The position numbers and the translations under genes are program-made. A stretch of DNA of 64,000 bases, from assembly GCA_003697135.1 (NCBI GenBank), contig RFGC01000042.1:62001-126000 (forward strand). The letters run 5' to 3'. This document shows positions 7,254 to 56,961 of the stretch, in pieces (the stretch's first letter is position 1; every line of letters starts with the position of its first letter). The DNA comes from Acidobacteriota bacterium (lineage in GTDB: Bacteria; Acidobacteriota; Blastocatellia; Pyrinomonadales; Pyrinomonadaceae). The notes under the pieces were generated by a model. The model was not told where the DNA came from, searched no databases, and was given only the letters and a program-made list of their open reading frames with translations.

Positions 7254-7266
7254 GCGTCTGATAACA
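7254..7266 (+). repeat. 13-mer repeat copy (GCGTCTGATAACA)
   Basis: This is a plus-strand copy of the window-wide GCGTCTGATAACG word with the last base changed to A. It lies between rsmI and mutS. Confidence 0.85.
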
Positions 7267-7277
7267 CCTTCGGTGTT
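7263..7277 (+). terminator. Short hairpin between rsmI and mutS
   Basis: Six-base arms AACACC (7263-7268) and GGTGTT (7272-7277) flank a TTC loop and are followed by TTTTGC. This is a weak candidate terminator for the convergent rsmI and mutS transcripts. Its first arm overlaps the end of a copy of the 13-mer repeat. Confidence 0.45.
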
Positions 7278-7309
7278 TTGCTAATTTTCTTTTGTTCGTT
7301 GTTTTGGGG

Positions 7310-10009
7310 CTATATTATTTTGCTTTTCAGCTCAATCAGCAATTGCTTTGCCTCTGCGTCTGATAACGTTTCAGGATTTATTTGTCTCAATTCCTCAACA
7401 ACTTGTTCATTGACGATTGCAAATAAGCTGATTTGGCGTGCTATTTTGCGTCCTACGGCTTGCTTTAGTGCTTTGTCGCTTTGGTTTGGAGACGTTTTAT
7501 TTTCTGAGTTTTTTTCTGTTTTGCTTTCGGAAGTTTTATCTGATGTTTTTTCATCAGCGAGAACAGCGAGTTCATATTTTTCAAGTCTATTCAAGACTTC
7601 GCGAGCGCGTTTTATGACCGATTGAGGCAGACCTGCAAGTTGAGCTACGGCAATTCCGTATGATTTCGATGCTTTACCTTTTTCGAGTTTGTGAAGAAAA
7701 ATGACCTTACCGTCTTTTTCTACTGCTGTGATTTGATAGTTTTTTGCTCCCGGTAAGATTTCAGCTAGTTCTGTAAGTTCGTGATAATGAGTGGCGAAGA
7801 GCGTTTTAGCCGAGTGCTCGGGTGAATTATGAAGATACTCTGCAACCGCCCAAGCTATGGAAAGCCCGTCAAAGGTTGAAGTGCCACGTCCTATTTCATC
7901 AAGTAGAACCAAACTTCTCGGCGTAGCATTGTGCAAAATGGTTGCCGTTTCCGTCATTTCAACCATAAAAGTTGATCGTCCCGAAGCTAAATCGTCCGAA
8001 GCTCCGACTCTTGTCCAGATTCTATCTACGATAGGAAGCCTTGCCGAAGAAGCTGGAACGAACGAGCCTATTTGAGCAAGAATCTGTATCAGCGCAACCT
8101 GTCGGAGAATTGTTGATTTACCACCCATGTTTGGGCCTGTGATTATCAAAAGTCGGTCGGTAGAATTGTTCAAATAAATATCATTTGGAACGAAGGGTTC
8201 ATCAGAGAAAACTTCCACAATTGCATGTCTGCCTTGTTTAATTTCGATTTCGTCGCCTTCGTGAAGTATTGGCATTACATAGTTTCTTTTCACAGCAGTT
8301 TCTGCCAGCGATTGTAGGGCATCGAGCGTAGCAAGTGCGCGTGCGGTGGTCTGAAGTGTCTTTGTATATTTTTGAACTTGTTGACGGATTTGCGAGAAAA
8401 GCTCTACCTCTAGCTCTTTGATACGTTCTTCTGCACTCAAAACTTTCTGTTCCCACTCTTTTAGCTTCGGTGTGGTAAATCTTTCAGCATTCGTCAACGT
8501 TTGCCGTCTTTCATAATCGGCCGGCACTTTCGACAGGTTCCCTTTTGAAACTTCTATGAAATACCCAAACACATTGTTAAACTTCACCTTAAGATTCAAA
8601 ATTCCCGTTCGTTTTCTTTCTTCTTCTTCAAATGAGGCGATAATTTTCTTGCCGTCCAATGATATTTTTCTCAGTTCATCTAATTCCGAACTAAAACCTT
8701 CTTTTATTACGCCGCCTTCAGTAACATTTGCGGGAGCATCCTCATTTATCGAATCGAGAATCAGCCTTTGTATTTCCGGCAACGCATGAATGTTTTCTGC
8801 CAGCACCGTGAGCAGAGAACTTTGCGCGTCTGATAACGCATGGGAGATTTTTGGGACTTGTGCAAGCGACACTGCTAAGGCTCTCAATTCGCGAGGTGTT
8901 ATCGTTCCCAAATTAAGTTTCCCGATCAGCCTTTCTAAATCCGAAATTTCTTTGAGCGCAGAGCGGATTTTTTCTCTTAGCATCAAATCCGTAAGCTCGG
9001 AAACAGCTTCGAGACGAGTTTCTATTTCTGATTTCTTAATACATGGACGCAAAAGCCATGACTTGAGAAGTCTAGCTCCCATGCCAGTTATTGTCTGGTC
9101 AATCACTGAAAACAAGGTTTTTTTGTTTTGCTCGCTTCGGCTCTCGATGATTTCGAGATTGCGTAGCGTGATTGTGTCCAGAACCATGTAGTCTTTTTCT
9201 TCAAAATATTTGATTTCAGATACGTGATCGGCCATTGTGCGCTGTGTTTTGTGAGCATAATCAAGCACTGCACCAGCTGCGCGTATTGACTGAACTTTAT
9301 TCTCTATCTCAAAGGCGCTAAGTTCACGAACTTGAAATTGTTTTTTGAGTAAGTTCTTACAATCTTCCAAGTGAAAAGCCAAATTGTCTAAGGCTGTAAG
9401 CGTTATGTTGTTTTGAGGATTTTCTGACGAGCTGAACCTTGATTCAACAAGTTTTCTTAGAGACTCTGGAAAAAGAAGTTCGCGAGGATCGAACGACTCA
9501 ATTTCTTGGCAGATTCGCTCCCACGCATTTTCTGCCTTTATTTGGGTTGTTAGAAACTCTCCGGTTGAAATTTCTAAAAAGGCCGCACCGAAACAGTCGC
9601 CTGCACCACATACAGACGCCAGCCAAAGATTTTCACGAGGCTCTACCAACGCAGAATCAACGGCGGTTCCAGGTGTTATAACTCTAACAACTTCTCTACG
9701 AACCAGTTTCTTGTTTTTTGTAGCTTGTTCGACTTGCTCACAGATTGCAACTTTGTAGCCTTTTTTGATGAGTTTCGCAATGTAAGTCGAAGCGGCTGTG
9801 TAGGGAACTCCACACATCGGTATAGGATTGGGTGTGTCTTTGTGTCGTGCAGTTAGTGTAATTTCAAGTTCTCGTGAGCCGATTATTGCGTCCTCATTAA
9901 AAAGCTCATAAAAATCTCCTAGGCGAAAAAACAAAAGTATTCCGGGATATTTTTTCTTTATCTCCAAATACTGCCTAAGCATCGGAGTTATGTTCGCTAC
10001 ATTTTGCAT
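7310..10009 (-). CDS. mutS: DNA mismatch repair protein MutS
   Basis: MutS binds mismatches and recruits MutL through ATP-dependent clamp formation. The 899-residue protein has the N-terminal mismatch-reading domain with the Phe-X-Glu motif in RLGDFYELF. It also has connector, lever and clamp domains, a Walker A GPNMGGKSTILRQ near residue 625, and DEIGRGTSTFDG and THYHEL of the ATPase. The C-terminal part after about residue 820 is a variable Lys/Ser-rich linker. Two copies of the 13-mer repeat lie inside the gene (7356-7368 and 8826-8838) and are read as TLSDA and ALSDA in protein segments that are not catalytic. No mutL is in the window. Confidence 0.97.
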   Translation of the reverse strand: MQNVANITPMLRQYLEIKKKYPGILLFFRLGDFYELFNEDAIIGSRELEITLTARHKDTPNPIPMCGVPYTAASTYIAKLIKKGYKVAICEQVEQATKNKKLVRREVVRVITPGTAVDSALVEPRENLWLASVCGAGDCFGAAFLEISTGEFLTTQIKAENAWERICQEIESFDPRELLFPESLRKLVESRFSSSENPQNNITLTALDNLAFHLEDCKNLLKKQFQVRELSAFEIENKVQSIRAAGAVLDYAHKTQRTMADHVSEIKYFEEKDYMVLDTITLRNLEIIESRSEQNKKTLFSVIDQTITGMGARLLKSWLLRPCIKKSEIETRLEAVSELTDLMLREKIRSALKEISDLERLIGKLNLGTITPRELRALAVSLAQVPKISHALSDAQSSLLTVLAENIHALPEIQRLILDSINEDAPANVTEGGVIKEGFSSELDELRKISLDGKKIIASFEEEERKRTGILNLKVKFNNVFGYFIEVSKGNLSKVPADYERRQTLTNAERFTTPKLKEWEQKVLSAEERIKELEVELFSQIRQQVQKYTKTLQTTARALATLDALQSLAETAVKRNYVMPILHEGDEIEIKQGRHAIVEVFSDEPFVPNDIYLNNSTDRLLIITGPNMGGKSTILRQVALIQILAQIGSFVPASSARLPIVDRIWTRVGASDDLASGRSTFMVEMTETATILHNATPRSLVLLDEIGRGTSTFDGLSIAWAVAEYLHNSPEHSAKTLFATHYHELTELAEILPGAKNYQITAVEKDGKVIFLHKLEKGKASKSYGIAVAQLAGLPQSVIKRAREVLNRLEKYELAVLADEKTSDKTSESKTEKNSENKTSPNQSDKALKQAVGRKIARQISLFAIVNEQVVEELRQINPETLSDAEAKQLLIELKSKII
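7356..7368 (+). repeat. 13-mer repeat copy inside mutS (C-terminal end)
   Basis: Exact GCGTCTGATAACG on the plus strand. It is read on the coding (minus) strand as Thr-Leu-Ser-Asp-Ala near residue 882 of MutS. Confidence 0.95.
8826..8838 (+). repeat. 13-mer repeat copy inside mutS (core domain)
   Basis: Exact GCGTCTGATAACG on the plus strand. It is read on the coding strand as Ala-Leu-Ser-Asp-Ala near residue 392 of MutS. Confidence 0.95.
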
Positions 10010-10581
10010 AAGCGTCTTAAACCTTGCCAGTTTCGTTCTTAGACTATGATACGAAAATACGTTCTATTCAACAAAATTCCCGATTTTCCGCAATCAAAAC
10101 CCATTTTACTGTCTAACTTAATTGCGTCTGATAACGAAAGCGCTCGAGTTGAAAAATTATACGCGTCTGATAACGATTAGAGGGCACTCGGATTGAGTAG
10201 GGAAAGGGTGAAGTTGAAAGCTGTTGGGTCTGATAACGTTTAACTAGACTTGGTTAATGCATCTCGTCTCATTTACTTTGTGAGTTTGTTGTACTGCGGA
10301 TAACGCTTAACTGATTAAGTTTTAGAGTTTTCAAGGGCATGGCTAATTTGTCCTATGCGTTGAGCATGAACTTCAGACCCAAGTTAGCTTCTTTTTTTCT
10401 AATTTCTTTTCTAGGTTTATGAGAACAAGTTCGGCTTTGCACTCAAAGCCAGACCGTTAATTTTTCATTTTCCAATTTCTCCGTTCATCTTGATAGATTA
10501 GGATTAAGTGTTTTATGTTGTTAGTTTCGTTGAAATTTTGCTTGTGTTTTCTCGAACGGTGAAGATTCTTCTATGGTTTTT
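10010..10581 (+). repeat. Intergenic region with a cluster of 13-mer repeats
   Basis: This 572-base gene-free stretch lies between mutS and lysA. It holds exact copies of GCGTCTGATAACG at 10124 and 10163, a GGGTCTGATAACG variant at 10226-10238 and a degenerate copy ending GATAACG near 10299-10305. Spacing is irregular (39, 63 and about 67 bases), which rules out a CRISPR. The plus strand is visibly G-rich. No tRNA, riboswitch or credible small gene was seen. The promoter of mutS must be at its left end. Confidence 0.85.
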
Positions 10582-24747: not shown

Positions 24748-25126
24748 TGCTTCTTCAATTATCCGCGTCTGATAACGTATTGAGAAGTGTCGATTAGAGA
24801 GAGTGCGCGTCTGATAACGAAAGAAGCAACAACGGAAAATTGGGTCTGATAACATCTTGAGCTTTGTATAATCACTGGGTTTGCAAGATAGAATAGATTG
24901 CAAGTATAAGTTGCAAATTAAAGAAAATTGAGTTTGCGTCTGATAACGCTATAGGATGAGTTTGAGCGATGCAAACAGGATTACGGGCTGGGGTTTTTGA
25001 GGTTCTACGAAAAATAGATTTCGTGAGATGAAAAGGCGGTTTGGAGTTTGTGATGCAAAGAGGTTGTAGTGTGAAGAGATTGGTTTCGTAAAAAGAAAAA
25101 TCTAGCAGTTAGGAAGATTAAGGTCT
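24748..25126 (+). repeat. Intergenic region with four 13-mer repeats
   Basis: This 379-base gene-free stretch has exact GCGTCTGATAACG copies at 24765-24777, 24807-24819 and 24936-24948 and a GGGTCTGATAACA variant at 24842-24854. I counted 88 G and 31 C in 24781-25080, a very strong G excess. No hairpin terminator or clear promoter was seen. Confidence 0.9.
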
Positions 25127-28707: not shown

Positions 28708-28741
28708 GCGTCTGATAACAAAAGATACGCGTCTGATAACG
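28708..28741 (+). repeat. Two 13-mer repeats between moaD and moaE
   Basis: GCGTCTGATAACA at 28708-28720 and exact GCGTCTGATAACG at 28729-28741, 21 bases apart, begin 14 bases after the moaD stop. Confidence 0.95.
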
Positions 28742-28824: not shown

Positions 28825-29313
28825 ATGGAAAGCCGAAGCGTTGTGAATAAGAAGGGAAAGGTGGACTTTTGGGCGTTGACGACTGAGCCTTTGGATGTTG
28901 GCAGGATAGCTAGAAGGATCGTGCCTGAGACTTGTGGAGCAATAGTTACCTTAGATGGATTCGTTCGGCGATTCACGAAGGGGAAGGAGACGCTGTATTT
29001 GGTTTATGAAGCTTATGAGGCAATGGCTTTGAGAGAAATGGAAAAGCTTATTGAGCAAGCTCATGAAAAGTTTGATATAGAAAGCGTCAGCATGGTGCAT
29101 AGACTTGGCAAGCTTGAGATAGGCGAAACAAGCGTCGTTATATCTGTTGCCGCTCCTCACAGAAAGGCTGCTTTCGAGGCTTGCCAGTGGCTTATCAAGG
29201 AACTTAAAAGAACTGTCCCTATCTGGAAAAAAGAGGTTTACAAAGACGAAGAAATATGGGTTGAAGGCGAAGAGAATTTTAGTGAAAATGCGTCTGATAA
29301 CGATCAACCTTGA
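28825..29313 (+). CDS. moaE: Molybdopterin synthase catalytic subunit
   Basis: MoaE combines with MoaD to convert precursor Z into molybdopterin. The 162-residue protein has GAIVTLDGFVRRF, LVYEAYEAMALREM, VHRLGKLEIGETSVVI, HRKAAFEAC and the catalytic lysine segment VPIWKKEVY. The last few codons (ASDNDQP) lie beyond the conserved domain and contain a 13-mer repeat, so the C-terminal tail was apparently extended through it. Confidence 0.95.
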   Translation: MESRSVVNKKGKVDFWALTTEPLDVGRIARRIVPETCGAIVTLDGFVRRFTKGKETLYLVYEAYEAMALREMEKLIEQAHEKFDIESVSMVHRLGKLEIGETSVVISVAAPHRKAAFEACQWLIKELKRTVPIWKKEVYKDEEIWVEGEENFSENASDNDQP

Positions 29314-29341
29314 TGAAAGTTAATACTTGCGTCTGATAACG
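29290..29341 (+). repeat. Two 13-mer repeats at the end of and after moaE
   Basis: Exact GCGTCTGATAACG at 29290-29302, read in frame as Ala-Ser-Asp-Asn-Asp within the MoaE tail, and at 29329-29341 just after the stop. They are 39 bases apart. Confidence 0.95.
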
Positions 29342-31885: not shown

Positions 31886-31944
31886 GCGTCTGATAACGTA
31901 TAGGATTTAATGTATCACTGAAGAATCATGCGCGTCTGATAACG
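31886..31944 (+). repeat. Two 13-mer repeats downstream of the Dph6-like gene
   Basis: Exact GCGTCTGATAACG at 31886-31898 and 31932-31944 lie between convergent genes, 46 bases apart. Confidence 0.95.
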
Positions 31945-32673: not shown

Positions 32674-32686
32674 GCGTCTGATAATG
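32674..32686 (+). repeat. 13-mer repeat variant GCGTCTGATAATG
   Basis: One-base variant of the repeat located between the acyltransferase and alanine racemase genes. Confidence 0.85.
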
Positions 32687-43191: not shown

Positions 43192-43219
43192 GCGTCTGAT
43201 AACAGATATTATGTAAAGC
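43192..43219 (+). other. Candidate chromosomal dif site (XerC/XerD)
   Basis: A 28-base site with XerC-side arm GCGTCTGATAA (43192-43202), central CAGATA (43203-43208) and XerD-side arm TTATGTAAAGC (43209-43219). The arms have the ATAA and TTAT inner ends of known dif sites, and the right arm agrees well with the Bacillus TTATGTAAACT and E. coli TTATGTTAAAT arms. It lies in a gene-free stretch. The plus strand has G 49 and C 19 in 43019-43191 but about G 28 and C 32 in 43220-43380. Confidence 0.7.
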
Positions 43220-43278
43220 TAGGTTAAGAGAAGGCAAACTAGCCTTCTTTCTCGAAACTTCCTTGAAACAAAAATCCC

Positions 43279-43303
43279 GTAGCGCAAGCCACTTTGTCGC
43301 TAC
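43279..43303 (+). other. Hairpin upstream of metK
   Basis: Arms GTAGCG (43279-43284) and CGCTAC (43298-43303) with a 13-base loop, followed by TGTCTTTT. It may be a weak terminator for transcription coming from the aromatic operon. It is not part of a known SAM riboswitch as far as I can see. The rest of the 370-base gap 43019-43388 holds only the dif candidate and the metK promoter. Confidence 0.4.
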
Positions 43304-43309
43304 TGTCTT

Positions 43310-43338
43310 TTGACACAAGTTACGAAAAGAAATAAAAT
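43310..43338 (+). promoter_or_regulatory. Strong sigma-70-type promoter for metK-ahcY
   Basis: Perfect TTGACA (43310-43315), 17 bases, TAAAAT (43333-43338), 50 bases upstream of the metK start. Confidence 0.8.
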
Positions 43339-43388
43339 TTGAAATTTACAAGTTTGCAAGACTACAAGACAAAAAGGAGCGAAAAGAA

Positions 43389-44555
43389 TTGACAAGGAAA
43401 GATTTTTTGTTCACTTCAGAGTCGGTAACGGAAGGTCACCCAGACAAGATAGCCGATCAAATATCTGATGCTATCTTGGACGCGATACTCGAGCAAGACC
43501 CAGAGGGTCGAGTAGCATGCGAGACAATGGTAACAACCGGTTTGGCCATAATAGCTGGTGAGATAACTACGAAAGCAAGAGTAAACTACAAAAAGATTGT
43601 TCGAGAAACCATAGAAGAAATCGGTTACACAGACGCGAATTTTGGATACGACTGCAAAACGCTATGCGTGATTGACGCTATAGGCACGCAATCACCGGAT
43701 ATAGCGATGGGAGTTGACACGGGAGGCGCCGGAGATCAAGGCATGATGTTCGGCTTCGCGTGTGATGAGACACCAGAATTGATGCCGCTTCCGATTCAAC
43801 TAGCGCACAATCTCACGAAAAGGATCTCCCAAGTGAGAAGAAGCAAGGAGATAGATTATCTGAGGCCGGACGGAAAATCCCAAGTAACAGTTGAGTATAG
43901 AGACGGAAAACCTTACAGGGTTGAAGCTATAGTCATCTCAGTTCAGCACTCAGACGACGTATCAAACGAGCAAATAAGACAGGACATTTTGGAGAAAGTC
44001 ATAAAACCGACGATACCAGCACATTTCCTAGACGAAAGAACAAAATATCACATAAACCCGACCGGAAGGTTCGTGATAGGCGGACCTATGGGAGACGCCG
44101 GACTCACGGGAAGGAAGATCATCGTTGATACATACGGAGGCTATGCACCACACGGCGGCGGAGCTTTCTCTGGCAAAGATCCAACGAAAGTTGATCGCTC
44201 AGGTGCCTACATGGCAAGATACATCGCCAAGAACATAGTAGCGGCTGGACTTGCCCAAAAATGCACCATACAGTTAGCTTACGCCATAGGTATAGCAGAG
44301 CCAGTATCAGTGCTGGTTGACACCCACGGCACAGGAGTAGTGAGCGATGAGACGTTATCAACACTAGTCAGAGAAAACTTTCAATTGACGCCCAGAGGCA
44401 TAATAGAAGAGCTAGACCTGCGAAGGCCGATTTACAAGAGAACTGCCAGATTCGGGCATTTTGGAAGAACGGAAGAAGATTTCACGTGGGAAAGGACAGA
44501 TAAAGCAGAAATACTGAGATCGCAAGTGAACCAAACAGTCAGGAGGAGTGCATAG
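43389..44555 (+). CDS. metK: S-adenosylmethionine synthetase
   Basis: MetK makes S-adenosylmethionine from methionine and ATP. The 388-residue protein has [53 protein letters not shown] and [19 protein letters not shown]. It starts at a TTG with AAGGAG about nine bases before it. Codons end mainly in A or C, unlike the G/T-ending codons of plus-strand genes to the left. This agrees with a strand-composition switch at the dif site. It is followed directly by ahcY. Confidence 0.98.
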
Positions 44556-45833
<1,278 letters not shown>

Positions 45834-45848
45834 AACTTTAGTCTGGGA

Positions 45849-48122
45849 TCAGGTTTTTGCCTTTGAAAGAAGATAAATACCGACGGCACAAAACAGAATT
45901 AGTGGTGCCCAAACCGCTACTTTAGGTTGAATCCAACCGCTTAGCGCCATCTGTTCCATTAGATTGCTTGCTCCTATAAAGGCAACCCAAAGGGCTACTG
46001 AATAACCGATCCCAGCCATACTCTTGTAGGTTTTCAGCGAGAAAGAAGTAGCTACAATTATGGCAATCAGGGGAAGCAAAACAGAAGAGTACCTTTTCTC
46101 TAGGGCTGTGATGTAGAGTCTCTGTTCACTATCGGAAATCTTTAAAGATATGTCCGAGTTTTTTATCCTTTCAGCAATTTCGGCTGCTGTCATATAAGAA
46201 GGTTTGAGCTGCGTTCCGAGCATTTCTGGTTCAAGGTCTTCAACAAGAATGCTTTCGACCCAACTATCAGTCTTCACAGTTCCTTCCAGTAAGAGCAACT
46301 TGTTTGCAGGTTTCAGGGGTTCGATGTTGCAAAAGCTTTCGGATTCGCTAGAAAGGAGAACCTCCTTGGAGGTTAATATGGACTTCACTTTATTTCCATC
46401 GAACTCGAAGAGATAGAAATCACTTCCCTGCCCTTTCTCTCGGTCGTATGCTTTTAGGGAAAGCAAGCGATTGTCGGCAATAGCCCAAATTCTGCTGCCA
46501 ACATTGACAGTTGTAACACCTCTCTGGCGTATTGTTGTTCTAAGCACGTCCTGACGTTTATTGGCTTCTGGAGCTACCTTCTCTTGGATAACCCAATTTA
46601 CAATGCCTACGACAAGGCCTATGAGAACACAAGGAAGAAGAACAACCCTGTAGATGCTTTGCCCTGAAGCTGTGAGGGTGATCAACTCGTTCTGTCTGGA
46701 TTTGATGGTGACAGCTGCCAGGCAGGCAATCATCATGCAAGAAGGAGAGATTTGCAAATAAACGTAGGGCAATAGATAGACTAGATACTGGATAAGCAGT
46801 TTTGTCCCGTTAGTCATGGCTCCAGCGAATTTCCACAGCTCAAATGCCGTGAAAACAAGGTATGTTGTGAGCAAGAACAAGCAGGCTAGGATGTAGAACT
46901 TCAGCAAACCCCTAGCCAAATCTAGATCGGAAAGTCTTGGAAATTTGAGGACTAAGAAACTGCCGGACTCAGTTTTCCTGGTGAAAGCCTTCCTGAATGC
47001 TTTGAGGAATCCTGACTTGAGAGAGTCCATAGGTTTGTCCGCTGCAAGTGCAAGCATCAGAATCAAAGGGATAGTGGAAATAGGCATAAAGCTTCCGACC
47101 GTAGGACTAACTTGCCCTGTTCGCGCCATCTGCTCACCTAGTAAGCCGACTAGGTAAAAGATAATAAGAATCAAAAGGGATACGAAGATGCCATTTCCCC
47201 TACTGTGTCTTTTTAGCCTTGCGCCAAGCACAGCACCTAGAAAGGCGAAGATCAATGGCGCGGTGGATAGGACGATTCTGCGGTTGAAAAGAATCTGGGC
47301 TTCTAACTTGTCTTTTCCGTCTCTTTGCAAGGTTGCTTTGTAGAGTTCTTCTAATCCGAGTTCCTCTAGGGATTCCTCAGTTTTCTTCAGCCTTTCCTCC
47401 AGTTCAGCTTTTTTAGTTTTCACAGCAACTCTTACGCTTTCGGACTTTTCAAATGCAATAGCTTCTTTGGGAAAGGAAATGACCCAAGCATCTTTTAACA
47501 CAAACTCCACGTAATCGTCTGGAACAGACATATAGCCTTCATTGGCTATCGTGATGGCTTTCTCGCTAGGAGTTTCTCTGAAGACGATTATTCCCTGCCA
47601 TGCATTTTGATTAAGATCACCTTCTCTCACGTAAACGGTCAAGTTAGGAATGTCTGTGCTTAGACTGCCGGGTTCGAGCGGAGAAGCTAGTTTCGCCAAG
47701 GCGGTTTTCAAAGCCACCTGACGGACTATCTTAGATGCTGCAGGGACAGCTTTCCAGTTTATAAAAAAGGCAAACAGAGAAAGGAAAAATCCCAGAACTA
47801 CTATTGGTAGGACTATCTGAGCGTAGCTTGCGCCTGAAGCTTTTATCGCAATGGTCTCTCTATCGGAATGCATTTTCCCGATACCTATGAGGACACCAAC
47901 CAGAATAGCCATTGGGCAGGTGAATGAAATAACGCTGGGAAGCAACGCAAAGGTTAACTGCCAAAGTAGAAAGTTCGGCAGGTTGGGGTTAAAAAAGATG
48001 TCCGCATAACGTCCTGCTTGTTGGACAAACAAAACCACTGTTAGCAATATCCATGCTGAAAGGAAGTAAGGGAAAATGGACTGAACAACATAAACGCTGA
48101 TTTTCAGGCTGAGATTTCTCAT
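45849..48122 (-). CDS. Fused LptF-LptG lipopolysaccharide transport permease
   Basis: The 757-residue protein has two LptF/LptG (YjgP/YjgQ) permease domains in one chain. The first ends near residue 370 (RHSRGNGIFVSLLILIIFYL, AADKPMD) and the second occupies about residues 395-757. Each half has three transmembrane helices, a periplasmic beta-jellyroll and three more helices. In most bacteria LptF and LptG are separate proteins that, with LptB, power lipopolysaccharide export. The fused form is plausible in this phylum. Its start overlaps recO by four bases. Confidence 0.9.
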   Translation of the reverse strand: MRNLSLKISVYVVQSIFPYFLSAWILLTVVLFVQQAGRYADIFFNPNLPNFLLWQLTFALLPSVISFTCPMAILVGVLIGIGKMHSDRETIAIKASGASYAQIVLPIVVLGFFLSLFAFFINWKAVPAASKIVRQVALKTALAKLASPLEPGSLSTDIPNLTVYVREGDLNQNAWQGIIVFRETPSEKAITIANEGYMSVPDDYVEFVLKDAWVISFPKEAIAFEKSESVRVAVKTKKAELEERLKKTEESLEELGLEELYKATLQRDGKDKLEAQILFNRRIVLSTAPLIFAFLGAVLGARLKRHSRGNGIFVSLLILIIFYLVGLLGEQMARTGQVSPTVGSFMPISTIPLILMLALAADKPMDSLKSGFLKAFRKAFTRKTESGSFLVLKFPRLSDLDLARGLLKFYILACLFLLTTYLVFTAFELWKFAGAMTNGTKLLIQYLVYLLPYVYLQISPSCMMIACLAAVTIKSRQNELITLTASGQSIYRVVLLPCVLIGLVVGIVNWVIQEKVAPEANKRQDVLRTTIRQRGVTTVNVGSRIWAIADNRLLSLKAYDREKGQGSDFYLFEFDGNKVKSILTSKEVLLSSESESFCNIEPLKPANKLLLLEGTVKTDSWVESILVEDLEPEMLGTQLKPSYMTAAEIAERIKNSDISLKISDSEQRLYITALEKRYSSVLLPLIAIIVATSFSLKTYKSMAGIGYSVALWVAFIGASNLMEQMALSGWIQPKVAVWAPLILFCAVGIYLLSKAKT

Positions 48123-48871
48123 TCTATTCCCTCTTTTACAGAATGAAGGAGATGCTCAATTACCCCATGCAAATAGCTTGCTTCTTTCAAGAAGTTTCCT
48201 TCAATGTTTTTGATGAAGTTTTGTGGATCGAGTTTCAGAGCTAAACGAAAGATTTCCAGATGTTCCTTGTTGAGAGAAGTTGACGCCTTCTCAGCTCTGC
48301 GACAAGAGGCGCAAAAAGCGTTGAAATTGTTAATGAAAATTCTCAAGTGATAATCTTCATCAAACCGCTTTTTACATCCTCCGCAGTATTTCCAATTGGG
48401 AAGGTAACCACTAAGCTTAAGCATCCAAATTCCAAAGTAAAGCGTCAAAAGCTTCATTTCGTTGGGAACACTTTGGGCGTTTGGGAGATTGAGGCTACTT
48501 GCCGTTTCTAGGCAAGCTTTTACCATTCGGTAGGTTGTTTCTTCGTTGACTCCTTGGGGAATGAAGCTTATAAGAGTGTCAGCAATAAATGCGAAATAAG
48601 GAAGTAGTAATGGTTTGCTAACGAGGTGAAAATAAGATTTCTTTAGCTCTGCCTTTTCTATCCTCACAAGCTCTCTTTCTCTGTGTGAAAAGGTCACGTT
48701 AACACTTGAGAACGGTTCTAGAGTGCCTGAGAACCGGCTCTTTACGTTTCTTGCTCCGTTAGCGACTCCTCTTAGGACACCGTAGTTTGGGGTTAGAAAT
48801 GTCACCACTTTATCCGCTTCGGCTAGCGGGAATGAACTAAGAACTATGGCTTCTGTTTCGTAGTAAAACAT
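48119..48871 (-). CDS. recO: DNA repair protein RecO
   Basis: RecO assists loading of RecA onto SSB-coated DNA in the RecFOR pathway. The 250-residue protein has an N-terminal OB-fold (YYETEAIVLSSFPLAEADKVVTFLTP) in two blocks, a helical core and a C-terminal zinc-binding part (CGGCKKRF, CASCRR). It is coupled to the LptFG gene by a four-base overlap and preceded by a small membrane protein gene. Confidence 0.93.
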   Translation of the reverse strand: MFYYETEAIVLSSFPLAEADKVVTFLTPNYGVLRGVANGARNVKSRFSGTLEPFSSVNVTFSHRERELVRIEKAELKKSYFHLVSKPLLLPYFAFIADTLISFIPQGVNEETTYRMVKACLETASSLNLPNAQSVPNEMKLLTLYFGIWMLKLSGYLPNWKYCGGCKKRFDEDYHLRIFINNFNAFCASCRRAEKASTSLNKEHLEIFRLALKLDPQNFIKNIEGNFLKEASYLHGVIEHLLHSVKEGIE

Positions 48872-48883
48872 GCTGTCATGCTG

Positions 48884-49054
48884 TTAGGAAAACAAAAGAT
48901 AGAAAATCCAAGCTATCCCTAGGCTAATCCCGACAAACTTTGCGAAAGTTTTTATGCCGAGGAGAAGCCTTTCTTTAGTGTTTCCCTCGGATAAAATAGC
49001 GAACATTATTGATATGAATAGAGAAAAAAGGCAAAGGTAAACTAAGTGCGTCAT
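48884..49054 (-). CDS. Small two-helix membrane protein (56 residues)
   Basis: A short frame begins at ATG 49054 and ends at TAA 48884-48886. The peptide starts MTHLVYLCLFSLFISIMF and has a second hydrophobic stretch (FVGISLGIAWIFYLLF) after a charged middle GNTKERL. Its start overlaps the stop of the upstream DUF6677-like gene (ATGA), and recO begins 12 bases after it. This tight packing supports it as a real gene. No family was recognised. Confidence 0.65.
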   Translation of the reverse strand: MTHLVYLCLFSLFISIMFAILSEGNTKERLLLGIKTFAKFVGISLGIAWIFYLLFS

Positions 49055-49431
49055 TTTTTCCTCCTCGAAGATATATCGAAACAGTTGAGAATCATGAGGT
49101 AGTTCATCAAACCCGCGATTTCGACGAGTCTCCCGCCGTATTCAAAAGTAATTTTTGATGCCGCTTCTGGAGAACTGTTTCCGAACAAGAGAAAGATAAT
49201 GTATCCTAGCCCGCTTCCCAGACGTGCGAATATGTTGAGAAAGTGTAGTAGGAAGCTATCCCTGCTGATGCTAGCGCCTGGATAATCCAATCCGCCGTTT
49301 GCGGCCCCTATCGCAAACATTAGAGCAAAAGTGACTGCCACCACGATGCCGGTTTTGATTCGCCTTTCGAGAATGTGCCCTAGTCCTGGGCAGAACCATG
49401 CTAAAGCGACCGAAAGAGCAGTTTTCTCCAT
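49051..49431 (-). CDS. DUF6677-like small membrane protein
   Basis: The 126-residue protein has three or four membrane helices. The start KTALSVALAWFCPGLGHILE resembles TM2/DUF6677 proteins, whose PGxGH motif follows the first helix, and the end FEYGGRLVEIAGLMNYLMIL matches the EYG...AGLMN pattern of DUF6677. Function unknown. It leads an apparent operon with the 56-residue protein, recO and lptFG. Confidence 0.7.
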   Translation of the reverse strand: MEKTALSVALAWFCPGLGHILERRIKTGIVVAVTFALMFAIGAANGGLDYPGASISRDSFLLHFLNIFARLGSGLGYIIFLLFGNSSPEAASKITFEYGGRLVEIAGLMNYLMILNCFDISSRRKK

Positions 49432-49453
49432 AAGAGTTTATTTTACTCAAGGT

Positions 49454-50626
49454 TTAGTCATAAAGCAGGTATCTTTGGCGCTTTTTTGCGAAAGTTTCTT
49501 CGTCTTCCTTCCATGACTGAACGATCTCTTGCAGGCTGCATCCGCTTTCTATTTGCACTCTCAATTTGTTTGTTCCGGCGATTACATCGAATGGATTTTT
49601 GTCAAAGACGTATTCGTATGGGGGTTCTTTCCATCTAAAGTCAAGAGGGTAGAGATCGTGTATGGTTTTCAGCAACGCTATTCCTGTTAGGACAGGCTTG
49701 AACTCCCTTCTATTTGTGACATGCAGAAAAACTCCACCACAGCTTTTTCCTGAGTGCTTTTGGAATGTTGGTATGAAATTCACTGGGCGGAAGATCACCC
49801 CTGGGAGTTGTAGTGCGTTCATCTCTTCGGCCAATTTTCTTGCATCTATGTATGGTGCGCCGATCATCTCGAAAGGTCTAGTGGTTCCTCTTCCTTCAGA
49901 GACTTGAGTTCCTTCAAAGAAGACTGTTCCGGGAAAAACGACAGCCGTATCAACGGTTGGCATGTTAGGTGATGGCATGACCCAAGGGGCGTCGGTTTCG
50001 TCGTAGAAGTAATTTCTCTTCCAGCCCTGCATCTCCAATACCTGCAAGCTGCAGTTAATGTTGAATTCTTGGTTAAACATCAATGCAAGTTCTCCAACCG
50101 TCATTCCATGTCTCATGGGTATCGGGAACATACCTACAAAAGATTCGTAGCCGCTTTCAACCAAGTTTCCTTCTATTTCTATCCCACCTATTGGGTTGGG
50201 TCTGTCTAGCACTATGAATTCCTTGTTGTTTTCTGCACATGCCAACATGGAGTTGGCCATTGTGTAGATGTAAGTATAGACCCTACACCCTACATCTTGC
50301 AGGTCAAACAGCAAGGTGTCTATATCTTTCAGCATCTCCGCAGTAGGCTTTCTGGTTTCACTGTAAAGAGAGAACGCGGCAATGCCTCTATACGTAGAGT
50401 GAGGCGTTTCTATCATGTTGTCTTGAACATCTGTGTTGAATCCGTGCTGTGGGCCAAATATCGCTTTTAGTTTTAGGTCTTTGTCTTCAAGCAGTAGGTC
50501 TGCTGCGAAGTTGTATTTGTGGTTGACGGAAGCCTGATTGCATATCAACCCTATTCGTTTGCCTTTCAACAGGGACTTTTTCTCCGATAAAAGCCTTTCT
50601 AAGCCAAGTTTTACTTTTCGCTTCAT
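49454..50626 (-). CDS. DUF1343 protein, NamZ-like exo-beta-N-acetylmuramidase
   Basis: The 390-residue protein belongs to the DUF1343 family, whose Bacillus member NamZ releases terminal MurNAc from peptidoglycan fragments (GH171). Conserved blocks are IGLICNQASVN, FGPQHGF, LLFDLQDVGCRVYTYIYTM, VLDRPNPIGG, MPSPNMPTVDTAV and FEGTQVSEGRGTTRPFE. The protein has no signal peptide, so it would act in the cytosol unless exported otherwise. It pairs functionally with the NagZ-like enzyme at 12003-13868. Confidence 0.9.
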   Translation of the reverse strand: MKRKVKLGLERLLSEKKSLLKGKRIGLICNQASVNHKYNFAADLLLEDKDLKLKAIFGPQHGFNTDVQDNMIETPHSTYRGIAAFSLYSETRKPTAEMLKDIDTLLFDLQDVGCRVYTYIYTMANSMLACAENNKEFIVLDRPNPIGGIEIEGNLVESGYESFVGMFPIPMRHGMTVGELALMFNQEFNINCSLQVLEMQGWKRNYFYDETDAPWVMPSPNMPTVDTAVVFPGTVFFEGTQVSEGRGTTRPFEMIGAPYIDARKLAEEMNALQLPGVIFRPVNFIPTFQKHSGKSCGGVFLHVTNRREFKPVLTGIALLKTIHDLYPLDFRWKEPPYEYVFDKNPFDVIAGTNKLRVQIESGCSLQEIVQSWKEDEETFAKKRQRYLLYD

Positions 50627-50738
50627 GATTTCCTTATTTCCTTCGGAGTAGTTAAAATTTCATCTTCGTTCAGGAAACTGTGTTTTGTCAATTTGTTAGA
50701 CCTGGTTTGAAGTTTTAAGATGGATTTTTTGGGTTCTT

Positions 50739-51275
50739 ATGCCGGGGAATTTTCATGCGACTACCGTCATCATGGTCAAGAAAGACGGTAAAACTGTGAT
50801 GGCGGGTGATGGGCAAGTTACTCTGGGCGAAACGGTTTTGAAAAGTAACGCAAGAAAGGTTCGCCGTCTATACAATGACAAGGTTCTCGTGGGGTTTGCA
50901 GGCGCTACAGCTGACGCTCTTGCTCTTCTTTCGAGATTAGAATCAAAGCTGGAAGAGTGTCAAGGGCATTTGGGCAAGGCTGTGATTGAACTTAGCAAAG
51001 ACTGGAGGACTGATAGGATTCTGAGGCATTTGGAGGCACTGATGATAGTTGCTGACAAAGAGAGTGCGTTTTTGGTTTCCGGCAAGGGCGATGTCATATC
51101 TCCTGAAGAAGGATTGCTTGCTGTGGGATCGGGAGGGATGTATGCTTTGGCTGCGGCACGCGCTCTCATGAAGCATACTAATCTTTCCGCTCGCGATATA
51201 GCAGAAGAGTCTCTCAAAATTGCGAGTAGCATCTGCATTTACACAAATTCTGAAATCGTTGTGGAGGAGTTGTGA
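50739..51275 (+). CDS. hslV: ATP-dependent protease subunit HslV
   Basis: HslV is the proteolytic core of the HslVU (ClpQY) complex. The 178-residue protein has the start [26 protein letters not shown], given here in outline; the mature N-terminal Thr follows cleavage of the short propeptide. [20 protein letters not shown] and ICIYTNSEI match the family. It overlaps hslU by one base, so they are translated together. Confidence 0.97.
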
Positions 51276-52636
51276 TGTTGAGCTTGGAGAAAAAGTTAGA
51301 TGAGTTAACGCCTCGCCAGATCGTTGAAGAGCTTGACAAGTATATCGTAGGGCAGACCAAGGCGAAAAGAGCTGTCGCCATTGCCTTGAGGAACCGCATC
51401 CGTAGGCAAAAGCTTCCGCGTAGCATTGCCCAGGAAATTCTCCCGAAGAATATCTTAATGATAGGCCCGACGGGCGTTGGCAAAACAGAAATCGCAAGGC
51501 GTCTTGCAAAGCTCTCCAATTCCCCTTTTGTGAAGGTAGAAGCCTCGAAGTTCACCGAAGTAGGCTACGTTGGCAGGGACGTTGAAAGCATGGTGAGAGA
51601 ACTCGTAGAGGTTGCTGTTGAGATGGCAAAGCAATCTGCTTTTGAGGAAGTTCGTCCTAAAGCGGAAGCAAATGTCGAAGAAAGATTGCTTGACATTCTT
51701 TTTCCTCGCTTTGATCAAGAACATAGTGACGCTGATAGAACTGAGAGATTCAATCGCACTAGGGAAAAGCTACGTCAACAGCTGCGCGCAGGTGAACTTG
51801 ATGACAGATTTGTCGAAGTTGATGTTCAGGATCGTTTTGTTCCCTTCATTGACGTTGTCGGAATTGGTGGACAGGGTTTTGAAGAAATGGGAGTCAATTT
51901 CGGCGATGTTTTGAGCCATTTATTTCCACGGAAAACAAAGAAAAAAAGGCTCAAAGTGTCTGAGGCAAGGCAGTATCTGCTCAGGGAAGAACAAGAAAAT
52001 CTGATTGATATGGAAGCGGTTATCCGATCTGCTATCGAGAGAGCCGAAAACTCGGGGATTATCTTCTTGGATGAAATAGACAAAATTGCTGGTAGAGAGT
52101 CTGGTGTCGGACCTGATGTGTCGCGTGAAGGAGTTCAAAGGGACCTTCTGCCGATAGTCGAAGGAACTAATGTTAATACTCGCTATGGGATGGTTAACAC
52201 GGAACATATCCTGTTTATAGCCGCTGGTGCTTTTCATGTCTCGAAACCCTCGGATTTAATTCCAGAGTTGCAGGGTAGATTTCCGATTAGAGTTGAGCTG
52301 GAAGCATTAGGTGCTGAAGATTTTAAGCGAATCCTTAAAGAACCTAAGAATTCGCTTATTAAGCAGTATGAAGCGCTTTTAAGCACTGAAGGCATTACAC
52401 TCCGCTTCACTGACGACGCTATTGAAGCCATAGCCGAAATGGCTGATTATGTTAATCGAATGACTGAAAATATTGGAGCGCGCAGACTTCACACGCTAAT
52501 GGAAAGGCTTTTGGAAGATATAAGTTTTGAAGGGGCTGATCTCGAAGAAAAACTCCAGATTATCGATGCGGATTTTGTTAAGAGAAAGCTTGAAGCAGTT
52601 GTTAAAGATGTTGACTTAAGTAATTATGTATTATAA
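51275..52636 (+). CDS. hslU: ATP-dependent protease ATPase subunit HslU
   Basis: HslU is the AAA+ unfoldase that feeds HslV. The protein of about 453 residues has [21 protein letters not shown], Walker [29 protein letters not shown], Walker [10 protein letters not shown] and the C-terminal domain ending in VDLSNYVL, which reaches into HslV. The start is ATG 51275, five bases after GGAGGAG; a GTG lies three bases earlier. Confidence 0.97.
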
Positions 52637-52664
52637 AGCTGTTGCTTAAAATCCTGCTTAAGTT

Positions 52665-53690
52665 ATGCACTCTACCTTTATTAAAGCAAATTTAGTGTTT
52701 ATATTTCTTGCATTGTTTAACTTCGCTTGTGGTAAGCGTCTTCCGCCTATGCCTCCTTCCTCTCGAGTTTCTCCACCAGTAAAAGTGGCTGGATTTCAAA
52801 GGGGAAGTAATCTAATCTTGTCATGGCAGCTTCCTCCTGGCACTTCGAGAACTGATGTTTATCGTTTTGTCGAATCATCTACTGCTTCGCCCGGAGTAAC
52901 CAAGGAGGATTTTTCTGCCCGCAGCATCTTGATAGCTTCTGTGTTAGGTGATGCTTCATACTCGGATAGGTTGGAATTTGCTGATCAGCCAGTTCGTGTT
53001 TACTATGCCGTGAGATTTGTCAATGAATTTGGTCAAAAAAGCGATTTTTCTGAGTTTCTGGTTATTCAACCCGTTCCGAATGTTTCGCTTCCGCCTTCCC
53101 TTCTTTCTGTTGATGTCTCGCAAGACAAGCTTACCGTTAAGTGGAAGGAACCAAATGAGAATGTTGATGGTTCATCTCCTCCTAATGTTCGAGGTTATAA
53201 TGTCTATCGCGTTGAGAAGGGCAGTGAATTAAAAAAGCTTAATTCTTCTCCTGTTTCATCGGATTCTTTTGATGATTTTTTCTTTGAGTTTGGAGTGTCT
53301 TATAAGTATTTCGTCAGAAGTGTCTCACTTGACAAAGATGGAAATTTCATAGAAAGTGACGATTCAAATATTTTTGAGGTCGTGCCTAAAGACGTTTTCC
53401 CGCCTTCTCGTCCTGAAGGGCTAAGTGTAGCAGCTTCGCCGGGCGCTATTTCGATTTTCTTTGCTGCAAGCCCTGAAAAGGATGTAGTTGGTTATTTTGT
53501 TTTCCGTTCTGAGGACCCGAATTTGCCGCTTTTGCAATGGCAAAAACTGAATGTTGAGCCTTCTGAAATTACTGCTTTTAGCGATCGGAATGTTCAAAGC
53601 GGAAAGACTTACTATTACTTTGTGAGAGCTGTAGACAAGTTTGGCAACTTGAGTGAGCCATCTGAAGTAGTGGCTGAGACTTTACCTTGA
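52665..53690 (+). CDS. Lipoprotein with fibronectin type III domains
   Basis: The 341-residue protein has a short signal sequence with a Cys at residue 22 (FNFACGKR), a likely lipidation site. It is followed by a proline-rich linker and three fibronectin type III-like modules, about residues 40-130, 140-230 and 240-340. Their Trp/Tyr pattern is visible in WQLPPGTSRTDVYRF, VKWKEPNENVDG and YYYFVRAVDKFGN. It is likely anchored to the outer membrane or cell surface and may bind polysaccharide or protein. Function unknown. Confidence 0.75.
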   Translation: MHSTFIKANLVFIFLALFNFACGKRLPPMPPSSRVSPPVKVAGFQRGSNLILSWQLPPGTSRTDVYRFVESSTASPGVTKEDFSARSILIASVLGDASYSDRLEFADQPVRVYYAVRFVNEFGQKSDFSEFLVIQPVPNVSLPPSLLSVDVSQDKLTVKWKEPNENVDGSSPPNVRGYNVYRVEKGSELKKLNSSPVSSDSFDDFFFEFGVSYKYFVRSVSLDKDGNFIESDDSNIFEVVPKDVFPPSRPEGLSVAASPGAISIFFAASPEKDVVGYFVFRSEDPNLPLLQWQKLNVEPSEITAFSDRNVQSGKTYYYFVRAVDKFGNLSEPSEVVAETLP

Positions 53691-53699
53691 GGAGTTTCT

Positions 53700-54494
53700 A
53701 TGAAGTTAGCAAGGTTCGTTTATGAGGGAGTAGTTTATTGTGGACAGGTCAGAGACAGTGAAGTTTTTCCGCTGGGAAAGTCGGAATTTTCCTTGGTGAA
53801 AGATGTCTGGGAAAAATGGGAAAATGTTATCAGACCCATTTCCTTATCGAAGGTAAAGCTTCTTCCACCAGTTCAACCATCGAAAATAGTCTGCGTTGGT
53901 AGAAACTATGTTGCTCATGCGTTAGAACTAGGAAACTTAGTTCCTGAAGAGCCGCTCATTTTTTTGAAACCGCCATCATCTTTAATCGGTCATGAGGATT
54001 TTATACTTCTTCCCCCTCAATCGTCTAGAGTTGAATGCGAAGGAGAGCTGGCAATCGTTATCAGACGCGAATGTCAGTTCCTTCCTCTCGACTCTGATGT
54101 ATCCGATTATATTCTCGGCTACACTTGCCTGAATGATGTAACTGCTAGAGATATACAAAAGAAAGATATCCAATTCACACGTGCGAAGTCTTTCGATACT
54201 TTCTGTCCTCTGGGGCCGTTTATCGCAACAGACATAAATCCTTCTAATCTCTGCATAACTACAAAGGTTAACGGAAACATAAAACAACAAGCTCGAACTT
54301 CTCAAATGGTTTTTTCGGTTGATTTTCTGGTAAGATATATCTCTCATCACATGACCTTGATGCCTGGTGATGTGATAGCCACGGGAACTCCTGCAGGAGT
54401 TTCAGAACTTCACGATGGCGATGTTTGCGAAGTTGAAATAGAAGGCATCGGTGTTTTGAGAAACTTTGTGAAAAAGAGGATAAAGGGATTATGA
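53700..54494 (+). CDS. Fumarylacetoacetate hydrolase family protein
   Basis: This 264-residue metal-dependent hydrolase/decarboxylase has [24 protein letters not shown], the metal ligands [10 protein letters not shown] and [14 protein letters not shown], and [12 protein letters not shown]. Members act on 2-oxoacids such as acylpyruvates or oxaloacetate. The substrate is not determinable. It overlaps the transaldolase gene by four bases. Two 13-mer repeat copies, in reverse orientation, lie inside it (53825 and 54056). Confidence 0.88.
53825..53837 (-). repeat. Reverse-oriented 13-mer variant inside the FAH-family gene
   Basis: The minus strand reads GGGTCTGATAACA, the same variant as at 24842. 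It is read in the gene as Asn-Val-Ile-Arg-Pro. Confidence 0.8.
54056..54068 (-). repeat. Reverse-oriented 13-mer inside the FAH-family gene
   Basis: The minus strand reads exact GCGTCTGATAACG. It is read in the gene as Ile-Val-Ile-Arg-Arg, just after the metal-ligand motif. Confidence 0.95.
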
Positions 54495-55141
54495 AGTTCT
54501 TTATTGATACGGCAAATCTGGATGAGATTAAACAAGCTTCTGAAATGGGATTGATTGATGGTGTAACAACTAATCCTTCTCTCATAGCAAAGGAAGGTAA
54601 CGTTGATTTCAAAGAACATATACGCAAGATTTGCGAGTTGGTAAGTGGAGATGTATCTGCTGAAGTAACAGCAGTTGATACCGAAGGAATGCTTCAGCAA
54701 GCGAGAGAATTGGCTTCAATAGCTCCGAATGTCGTCATAAAGTGTCCGCTTACACTTGAGGGACTCAAAGCTACCAAAATCCTAAGCAGCGAAAATATAA
54801 AGGTAAATGTCACTTTGTGCTTCTCTCCAGCTCAAGCTTTGTTAGCTGCTAAGGCGGGCGCAACCTATGTTTCCCCTTTCATAGGAAGACTAGATGATGT
54901 CGGACATGACGGAATGCAGCTGATTCGCGATATCGTCCAAATATACAAAAATTACAACTTCCCTACGCAAGTTTTGGCCGCTTCCATAAGACATCCTAGG
55001 CACGTGATTGAATCAGCATTAGCTGGCGCTCACGTGGCTACAATCCCGTTTAAGGTTATACAACAGCTCGTGAAACATCCCTTGACGGACAAGGGACTAG
55101 ATGCATTCCTGGCTGACTGGAAAAAGAGCGGAAGAAGTTGA
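54491..55141 (+). CDS. tal: Transaldolase (TalC/MipB type)
   Basis: This 216-residue short transaldolase of the pentose phosphate pathway shows [28 protein letters not shown], the Schiff-base lysine in [19 protein letters not shown]-type context (the catalytic region ending [13 protein letters not shown]) and [10 protein letters not shown]. The short form is related to fructose-6-phosphate aldolase, so either activity is possible. It overlaps the preceding gene by four bases. Confidence 0.92.
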
Positions 55142-55174
55142 TAAAGTTTGCGAATTTGTTATGATGTCTAAGTT

Positions 55175-55630
55175 ATGAAAGTGCTTTTAGCAACAGATGG
55201 AGGCAAACATAGCCAAGCGGCGGTAGAGGCTATACGAATTCTGAACCCTGAAACACTGACAGAACTCAAAATTATCTCAGTAATAGACATGAGTGTCCCG
55301 CTAGCGATTGACATATATGCGGGATACCTTCCTTCGACTGCTGAGATTGAAGCTGCAGCAAAAGAAACTGCTGAAAATATACTCAAAGAAGCATCCCAAA
55401 AAGTGTCAGAGATGCTTGGGAATAAACCAGTCAAAATAACAACGGAAATCTTGGTAGGCTCACCAGAAAGCGCAATTGTCGAAACTGCTGAGCAAATGCC
55501 CGCAGACCTTATAATTGTCGGTTCTCATAGCTACAACCGCTGGGAAAGATTGCTCCTAGGTTCGGTCTCCGACTCTGTCGTGCATCATGCTCACTGTTCT
55601 GTATTGATTGTCAAAAGCCAAGCAGGTTAA
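55175..55630 (+). CDS. Universal stress protein (UspA family)
   Basis: This 151-residue single-domain protein has LLATDGGKHSQAAVEA at the start and the nucleotide-binding GSHSYNRWERLLLGSVSDSV near the end, which matches the G-2X-G-9X-G-(S/T) pattern. Role: stress response, mechanism not defined. Confidence 0.9.
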   Translation: MKVLLATDGGKHSQAAVEAIRILNPETLTELKIISVIDMSVPLAIDIYAGYLPSTAEIEAAAKETAENILKEASQKVSEMLGNKPVKITTEILVGSPESAIVETAEQMPADLIIVGSHSYNRWERLLLGSVSDSVVHHAHCSVLIVKSQAG

Positions 55631-55636
55631 ACTCTT

Positions 55637-56419
55637 ATGCTTTACTTCGAGAAGCTCGGAACAGACTCGAAAAATGTGTGTGTTTTTCTTCATGCTTTTC
55701 CGCTTGATCGTGAAATGTGGCAGCCACAAGTAGAAGCATTGAAGGAAAAGATGCAGGTGATTTTGATTGACTTGCCGGGATTTGGAAAGAGTCTGCCCAT
55801 CAAAAATTTGTCGATGGAATTTATGGCTTCCGAGGTCATAAGAACGCTCGATAGCTTAAAAATAGAAAAAGCTATCTTTGTGGGGCTTTCAATGGGCGGA
55901 TATGTTATCTTCAACCTCTATAGGCTCTTTCCGCAAAGAGTCTCAGCAATGGTTCTATGCGACACGACTCCAGCTTCCGACTCTGAAGAAAGAAAATCAA
56001 TGCGGTTTGAGTTGATAGAACAAATCAAATCACAAGGGGTTGAGGTCCTAGCTCAACAAATGCTCCCCAACCTCGTTTCAAAACATACAGCCCTTAATAA
56101 CACTCTTCTTATGGAGTGGTTAAGACAAAAATTTCTTAACGTAAATCCTGAAGCTGCAGTTTCAGCTCTCAAAGCCATGGCAGATCGCAAAGATCATACT
56201 GAATGGATTTCTAACATAAACGTCCCTACCTTACTTATTTTCGGCGAAGAAGATAAGGTAACGAACATCGAAATGGCTGAAAAGATGAACTCTGTCATTG
56301 CAAATTCGTCTCTTGTAAGAATCGCAAATGCTGGTCATTACTCCAATCTAGAAAATCCTGAAGGGTTCAACTCAGCGTTGATTGGATTTATAGAAAGGCA
56401 TTTTCCCAACGACAAGTGA
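55637..56419 (+). CDS. Alpha/beta hydrolase
   Basis: This 260-residue protein has the oxyanion region VFLHAFPLDREMW, the nucleophile elbow GLSMGGYV, the acid-site loop IFGEEDKVT and the final His in ANAGHYSNLENP. It looks like the 3-oxoadipate enol-lactonase/esterase group. The substrate is unknown. Its stop overlaps the GTG start of the DUF402 gene. Confidence 0.88.
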   Translation: MLYFEKLGTDSKNVCVFLHAFPLDREMWQPQVEALKEKMQVILIDLPGFGKSLPIKNLSMEFMASEVIRTLDSLKIEKAIFVGLSMGGYVIFNLYRLFPQRVSAMVLCDTTPASDSEERKSMRFELIEQIKSQGVEVLAQQMLPNLVSKHTALNNTLLMEWLRQKFLNVNPEAAVSALKAMADRKDHTEWISNINVPTLLIFGEEDKVTNIEMAEKMNSVIANSSLVRIANAGHYSNLENPEGFNSALIGFIERHFPNDK

Positions 56420-56943
56420 AAGTTCTTAACATAAACGCAAGAAAGCTCAACCAAAAAACTCAAAAGTCATGGCAGGCCGAGCTGATTACCCAGAACGAGA
56501 AGTTCATTCTTCTTTCTGGACAGTTCGAGAAAGAAATATGGCATCCCCATCTAAACGTTATCAGACGCGGCACAATCTCCTATGAGTTCTTTTGGTGGGA
56601 AAAGTGGTATAGTATATTCAGATTTCACGAGCCAGATGGTAAGTTCAAAATCTTCTACTGCAACATAAATTTGCCACCTATTGTCTCAGATAACACTTTA
56701 GATTATGTTGATCTTGACATAGATATAATTGTCCGAGAGGACATGTCATACAAAATTCTCGACTTAGAAGAATTCCAACAAAACAGCTTGAAGTTCTCTT
56801 ATCCCGAAGAAATCGTAAAAAAATGCTTCAAAAGCCTTTGTGAGCTACAAGCAATGATAAACGCTCGCTCCTTTCCTTTCAACCTTCCTCTCGACCTTCC
56901 CCTAACTGGTTTAATTCTCCAACGTTATCAAACTCAACCCTAA
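56416..56943 (+). CDS. DUF402 domain protein
   Basis: This 175-residue protein has a GTG start and a DUF402 core (RWY-like WWEKWYSIFRFHEPDGKFK, YYC-like FYCNINLPPIVS, LDYVDLDIDIIV, YPEEIVKKC). Characterised relatives are nucleoside tri- and diphosphate phosphatases or RNA-associated proteins. The exact activity is not known here. A reverse-oriented exact 13-mer repeat lies inside at 56556-56568. Confidence 0.75.
   Translation: MKVLNINARKLNQKTQKSWQAELITQNEKFILLSGQFEKEIWHPHLNVIRRGTISYEFFWWEKWYSIFRFHEPDGKFKIFYCNINLPPIVSDNTLDYVDLDIDIIVREDMSYKILDLEEFQQNSLKFSYPEEIVKKCFKSLCELQAMINARSFPFNLPLDLPLTGLILQRYQTQP
56556..56568 (-). repeat. Reverse-oriented 13-mer inside the DUF402 gene
   Basis: The minus strand reads exact GCGTCTGATAACG. 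It is read in the gene as Asn-Val-Ile-Arg-Arg. Confidence 0.95.
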
Positions 56944-56948
56944 CACTT

Positions 56949-56961
56949 CGCTATCAGACGC
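56949..56961 (-). repeat. Reverse-oriented 13-mer variant between convergent genes
   Basis: The minus strand reads GCGTCTGATAGCG, one base different from the consensus, just after the DUF402 stop. Confidence 0.85.

Follow-up and report, generated by a model that had tools for sequence, protein, structure and literature searches.

The window, that is, the whole stretch of 64,000 nucleotides analysed here, carries a dif-like site on the plus strand at positions 43192–43219. The site, GCGTCTGATAA-CAGATA-TTATGTAAAGC, has the 11+6+11 layout: an XerC arm, GCGTCTGATAA (43192–43202), assigned also by comparison with the dif sites of the family; a 6-bp centre, CAGATA (43203–43208), which in the relatives is mostly TAAAGA/TAGAGA or TATATA/TACATA; and a canonical XerD arm, TTATGTAAAGC (43209–43219), of the TTATGT type. 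It is the only exact full dif in the genome and lies near the terminus, with the skew break 13 kb off. The same genome codes for an FtsK with a gamma domain and for only two tyrosine recombinases, i.e., XerD (TIGR02225, above the cut-off) and an XerC-like protein, whose best match is TIGR02224 with a score of 331.6, just below the cut-off of 335.2. With XerC, XerD, and FtsK gamma all present, the 43192 copy is, by its sequence, a standard XerCD/dif site and a candidate for recombination.

The metK gene (43389–44555, plus strand), coding for a methionine adenosyltransferase, adjoins dif in the window and is adjacent or close to it in many relatives. Compared with most of these, the window has the block from metK to hslUV (43389–56943) on the far side of dif and in reverse orientation, a placement that suggests a terminus-proximal inversion in its lineage. 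A single ORF of 757 residues (45849–48122) matches LptF with its N-terminal half and LptG with its C-terminal half (fused LPS export permease).

A polar word that equals one arm of dif

The 12-mer GCGTCTGATAAC starts at 43192 on the plus strand and is directly followed by AGATATTATGTAAAGC. At no more than one mismatch it occurs 22 times in the window, while shuffled sequences gave 0.11 expected copies and a maximum of 2. All the copies up to 43192 are on the plus strand and all those from 53826 on are on the minus strand. The plus-strand half-sites include two exact copies at 7254 and 7356 (7254–7367), one copy within an ORF, antisense to 7310–10009 (8826–8837), an intergenic cluster of three at 10124, 10163, and 10226, the last one being GGGTCTGATAAC (10124–10237), an intergenic cluster of four at 24765, 24807, 24842, and 24936 (24765–24947), an intergenic pair 21 bp apart (28708–28740), two further pairs at 29290 and 29329 (29290–29340) and, again intergenic, at 31886 and 31932 (31886–31943), and the variant GCGTCTGATAAT (32674–32685). 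On the minus strand, the innermost half-site is GGGTCTGATAAC (53826–53837), and the innermost exact one lies at 54057–54068; another one (56557–56568) falls within the support interval (55450–56646) of the skew at third codon positions (GC3), and the variant GCGTCTGATAGC is found at 56950–56961. The flip zone between the innermost convergent words (43204–53825) is free of further words.

The whole genome (2.79 Mb, 47 contigs) contains 78 exact copies of GCGTCTGATAAC, 50 forward and 28 reverse, and no copy of a control word with the reversed pattern. The copy counts per contig come from pattern searches, and the other analyses were carried out on stretches of the genome. Each of the contigs bearing the word has it in a single orientation, except for C19, which is the contig with the flip. 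Most copies are gathered on eight contigs of about 770 kb in all (C4, C13, C18, C19, C20, C21, C26, and C33), and none was found on any of four contigs of 516, 315, 250, and 202 kb. All the copies close to the terminus are directed towards it. When words were counted without bias in 397 kb of word-oriented terminus sequence, pieces of this one proved to be by far the most strand-polar 8-, 10-, and 12-mers, with GTCTGATAAC reaching 82 vs. 0; since some of these stretches were oriented by the words themselves, the independent evidence of polarity is the flip on the single contig C19. By the same count, TTATGTAA, the word from the XerD arm, shows no polarity (7 vs. 9).

The full motif, obtained from 77 copies, reads YGCGTCTGATAACGNWW. 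All 77 copies have C or T at position −1, 69/77 have G at +12, and +14 and +15 are mostly A/T; the flanks of the 77 copies share no sequence outside the motif. Although 89% of the sequence is coding, 62 out of 73 copies are intergenic. They stand in same-direction clusters with spacings of 21–129 bp and with no helical phasing (R = 0.20).

The original prediction was that the first 11 bases of the repeat are identical to the XerC arm of dif, that the next base (C) is shared as well, and that only the copy at 43192 continues into an XerD arm, the others being half-sites. The first and the last of these statements hold: the same GCGTCTGATAA serves as arm and as word in many genera, family-wide, and only one of the 77 flanked copies has the XerD arm (9/9 to TTATGTAAA at the right distance), the next best reaching 7/9 (TTAGGTGAAGT) and the rest being background-like. 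The match at base 12 is true of the window but not a general feature, as the relatives' dif mostly has T there; the C is therefore a local peculiarity, and what dif and the repeat truly have in common is the 11-bp arm. A dif with an unrelated XerC arm was not found elsewhere in a search limited to two mismatches of the dif pattern, in which the only other match in the genome was a word copy with a weak right arm. Without an XerD arm, the isolated copies are not expected to serve for recombination.

Half-sites, dif, and the compositional switch across the family

A dif-like pattern with this XerC arm was retrieved from 37 out of 60 Pyrinomonadaceae genomes; the dif of Pyrinomonadaceae bacterium SKYG66 (JANWYH010000007.1), for instance, is identical to that of G001, a genome of the same genus as the window, and the window itself is placed in this family (Acidobacteriota, Blastocatellia). 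Many genomes of the family also harbor the isolated word, usually in one to nine copies each, and some genera have this dif but no words. Among the listed contigs with both orientations, the change is always convergent (plus and then minus) and never divergent. In the family regions that were inspected closely, the polarity of the exact word near the flip is absolute, and the wrong orientation is confined to two weak variants, ATGTCTGATAA and ATGTCCGATAA. In G132 (4.1 Mb, with a contig of 2.77 Mb), all six copies of GCGTCTGATAA lie within 28.6 kb (1538301–1566888), in the order + + + + − −, dif being the third one. The recurrence of the word across the family, together with the shuffles and the genome control given above, rules out chance as the origin of the identity between arm and word, which had been left as one option.

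The centre of dif varies by genus: it is mostly TAAAGA/TAGAGA where words occur and TATATA/TACATA in several of the word-lacking genera (G010, G044, G045, G049, G059, G062, and G073).

Outside the class, an identical or almost identical XerC arm (GMGTCYGATAA) is present in the dif-like sites of many phyla and is common in those of Brevibacillus, Paenibacillus, Nitrospira, and deltaproteobacteria; the isolated arm is not enriched in the tested genomes of these four groups. Since the arm is widespread in dif where isolated copies are not enriched, dif is the older element, from which the polar words derived later. This, in turn, overturns one half of the original reading, i.e., that dif was made by adding an XerD arm to a pre-existing polar word, and leaves the other half, the half-site relation, in place. 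Another Blastocatellia family (G098:C42 and G087) likewise has isolated words and a dif whose XerC arm is the same.

In the relatives, the flip does not coincide with dif but mostly lies 8–10 kb from it, on the XerD side. In six of them (G018, G020, G023, G054, G065, and G132), the distance is 9–10 kb and the innermost convergent words are 1.3–1.9 kb apart; G042 has the same arrangement, with dif about 9 kb from the flip. Several plus words stand between dif and the flip and thus point away from dif, and the XerC arm of dif itself follows the polarity of its side. Most of these relatives share the gene order around the flip and, therefore, are not independent of one another. Two genomes have the flip on the other side of dif with the polarity rule kept: in G001 the segment bearing dif is inverted, and in G022 dif is turned round relative to metK and is itself the innermost reverse word. 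In both (G001:C21 and G022:C3; L055 and L068), dif is inverted with respect to the neighbouring genes, and the orientation of dif and the side of the flip change together. In G014, the stretch read has no reverse word.

The compositional switch was placed by a two-segment fit to the GC skew. It falls between the innermost words in 9 out of the 11 genomes in which a single contig carries both innermost words (G001, G017, G018, G022, G023, G042, G054, G065, and G132). The exceptions are the genome of the window (G000), with the skew break about 2 kb outside the innermost interval, and G020, where the cumulative maximum falls within the interval and the fit puts the break 0.5 kb beyond it. The GC3 skew rejects a switch at dif by 81 (G000), 120 (G001), 20 (G054), 11 (G023), and 8 (G065) log units, differences that overstate the certainty because sites are treated as independent. 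In G001 the GC3 switch is 192–564 bp from the innermost forward word, and in G042 the GC3 support interval (66519–69027) encloses the innermost words (66696, plus, and 68108, minus); in G022, the GC3 switch coincides with dif, itself the innermost word of that genome. In clear cases, the GC3 skew has the same sign for the genes of both strands; a gene-strand artefact is thereby ruled out in G000, G001, G022, and G054, where this holds on each side. The skew is uninformative in G009, G014, G048, and G083, and the GC3 signal of G017, G018, and G020 is too weak for a decision. Nearly all the informative genomes have their compositional switch at the flip of the words and not at dif.

Unlike the Pyrinomonadaceae pattern, the skew break of G098, from the other family, lies among words of the same orientation. 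Among five genomes of word-lacking genera (G010, G044, G045, G049, and G073), the break is near dif in two (G045 and G049).

A possible role of the half-sites at the end of replication

The explanation that we favour, if tentatively, is that the words are putative XerC half-sites whose convergent arrays bound the zone where the forks meet and act like Ter sites. Each word would represent a high-consensus site for one XerC protomer, i.e., half of a dif. As XerC is expected to read this arm in dif, the most economical assumption is that it reads the isolated words too, and XerC, or a complex containing it, would most likely be the polar barrier on them. A fork reading the word in the 5′–3′ sense would pass; beyond the flip, the same fork would meet opposing words and be stopped or slowed until the other fork arrives. 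Dif would be one more such site plus an XerD arm, with its own XerC arm in the same polarity. The half-site motif extends as C-G-N-W-W where the dif centres of the relatives have T-A, so that binding could involve another protein. To our knowledge, no Xer protein has been described as stopping forks.

Polar sites that converge around the terminus, one feature of a fork trap in the general sense, are present here. In Edwardsiella tarda, a sharp skew flip between paired Ter sites has been read as functional fork arrest (PMC8707476); since any polar motif of the leading strand flips near the terminus, coincidence with the skew is not by itself proof of arrest. The likeness to the Tus-Ter system of Enterobacterales concerns the opposed polar sites round a narrow zone and the sharp GC-skew flip (PMC8707476). 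By contrast, no Tus was found here, and the site sequence is unrelated and equals a dif arm. The place of dif differs too: here it is at the edge of the innermost pair or beyond it, and in E. coli and several other tus-bearing species it is enclosed by the innermost Ter sites (PMC10331603). The RTP-Ter system of Bacillus subtilis also has polar terminus sites, but RTP was not found either: searches of 20 relatives' genomes retrieved neither Tus (PF05472) nor RTP (PF02334), with positive controls in E. coli and B. subtilis, respectively.

A known fork trap is probably absent from most bacteria (PMC10331603). Whether dif is the place where replication ends has long been disputed, with Hendrickson and Lawrence's proposal on one side and Kono et al. 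on the other (PMC3025954). In the Pyrinomonadaceae lineage, the compositional switch follows words that are half a dif, and the point of termination would thus be separated from dif. If XerC does bind them, a recombinase would have a second, polar job in the terminus, beside that of B. subtilis XerD, and this would point to Xer proteins as general organisers of the terminus. The site is short and sharply defined, so that both binding and arrest can be readily tested.

The main rival, possible but on balance unlikely, is that putative XerC-bound half-sites unload or halt SMC-ScpAB in the terminus, polarity reflecting the direction from which SMC arrives. In B. subtilis, XerD unloads SMC at terminus sites (Karaboja et al. 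2021, as summarised in PMC10945525, PMC8357415, and PMC8242196), and a full SMC is encoded in the genome of the window. Clusters of many sites would suit an unloader, for which several sites may be needed according to the account in PMC10945525, and unloading would explain the clustering and perhaps the polarity. As far as they are described in these accounts, the B. subtilis sites (XDS) resemble the words in being Xer sites of the terminus with a role outside dimer resolution; they belong, however, to XerD and affect SMC, whereas the words match the arm of XerC, have an absolute polarity, and track the switch point of replication, and the XerD-arm word is not polar. Moreover, SMC unloading gives no account of a compositional switch that lies some 9 kb from dif and no more than about 1 kb from the innermost words.

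It seems more doubtful still that another terminator protein reads YGCGTCTGATAACGNWW, the likeness to the XerC arm either allowing this protein to sit on dif too or being inherited from dif. In its favour, the half-sites are constrained beyond the 11-bp arm (C/T at −1, G at +12, and mostly A/T at +14 and +15) and at these positions differ from the dif of the relatives; against it, the searches gave neither a third tyrosine recombinase nor Tus or RTP, and the ORFs inspected at the flip in G018 include no obvious DNA-binding candidate besides Ssb.

KOPS-like sequences, directing the FtsK motor to dif, are a poor fit, and we regard this role as improbable. The words share with the KOPS/SRS of FtsK/SpoIIIE a strong polarity towards the terminus, and an FtsK with a gamma domain is present, but polarity does not switch at dif: in most relatives the words reverse 8–10 kb past it, and the plus words in between point the wrong way. 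Furthermore, the word is longer than KOPS/SRS and far rarer in the relatives (fewer than ten copies per genome in most of them), and it is unlike GGGNAGGG, which is itself mildly polar (10 vs. 2). Finally, it is scarcely conceivable that the copies were left behind by mobile elements or by failed dif integrations of Xer-using elements: they do share one dif arm, but their unrelated flanks rule out such a spread, the exact word has an absolute polarity near the flip, and the copies are for the most part (62/73) intergenic and clustered in one direction.

Some polar words also lie within genes. In G017 and G018, one is located inside rimI (L061:17932–18567 and L063:10082–10636), near the flip and at an apparently orthologous coding position, where it apparently encodes RLIT. 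In G048, the homologue of LptF-LptG (L265:12084–14810) has several in-frame polar words in its linker, read as ASDNE/ASDNV.
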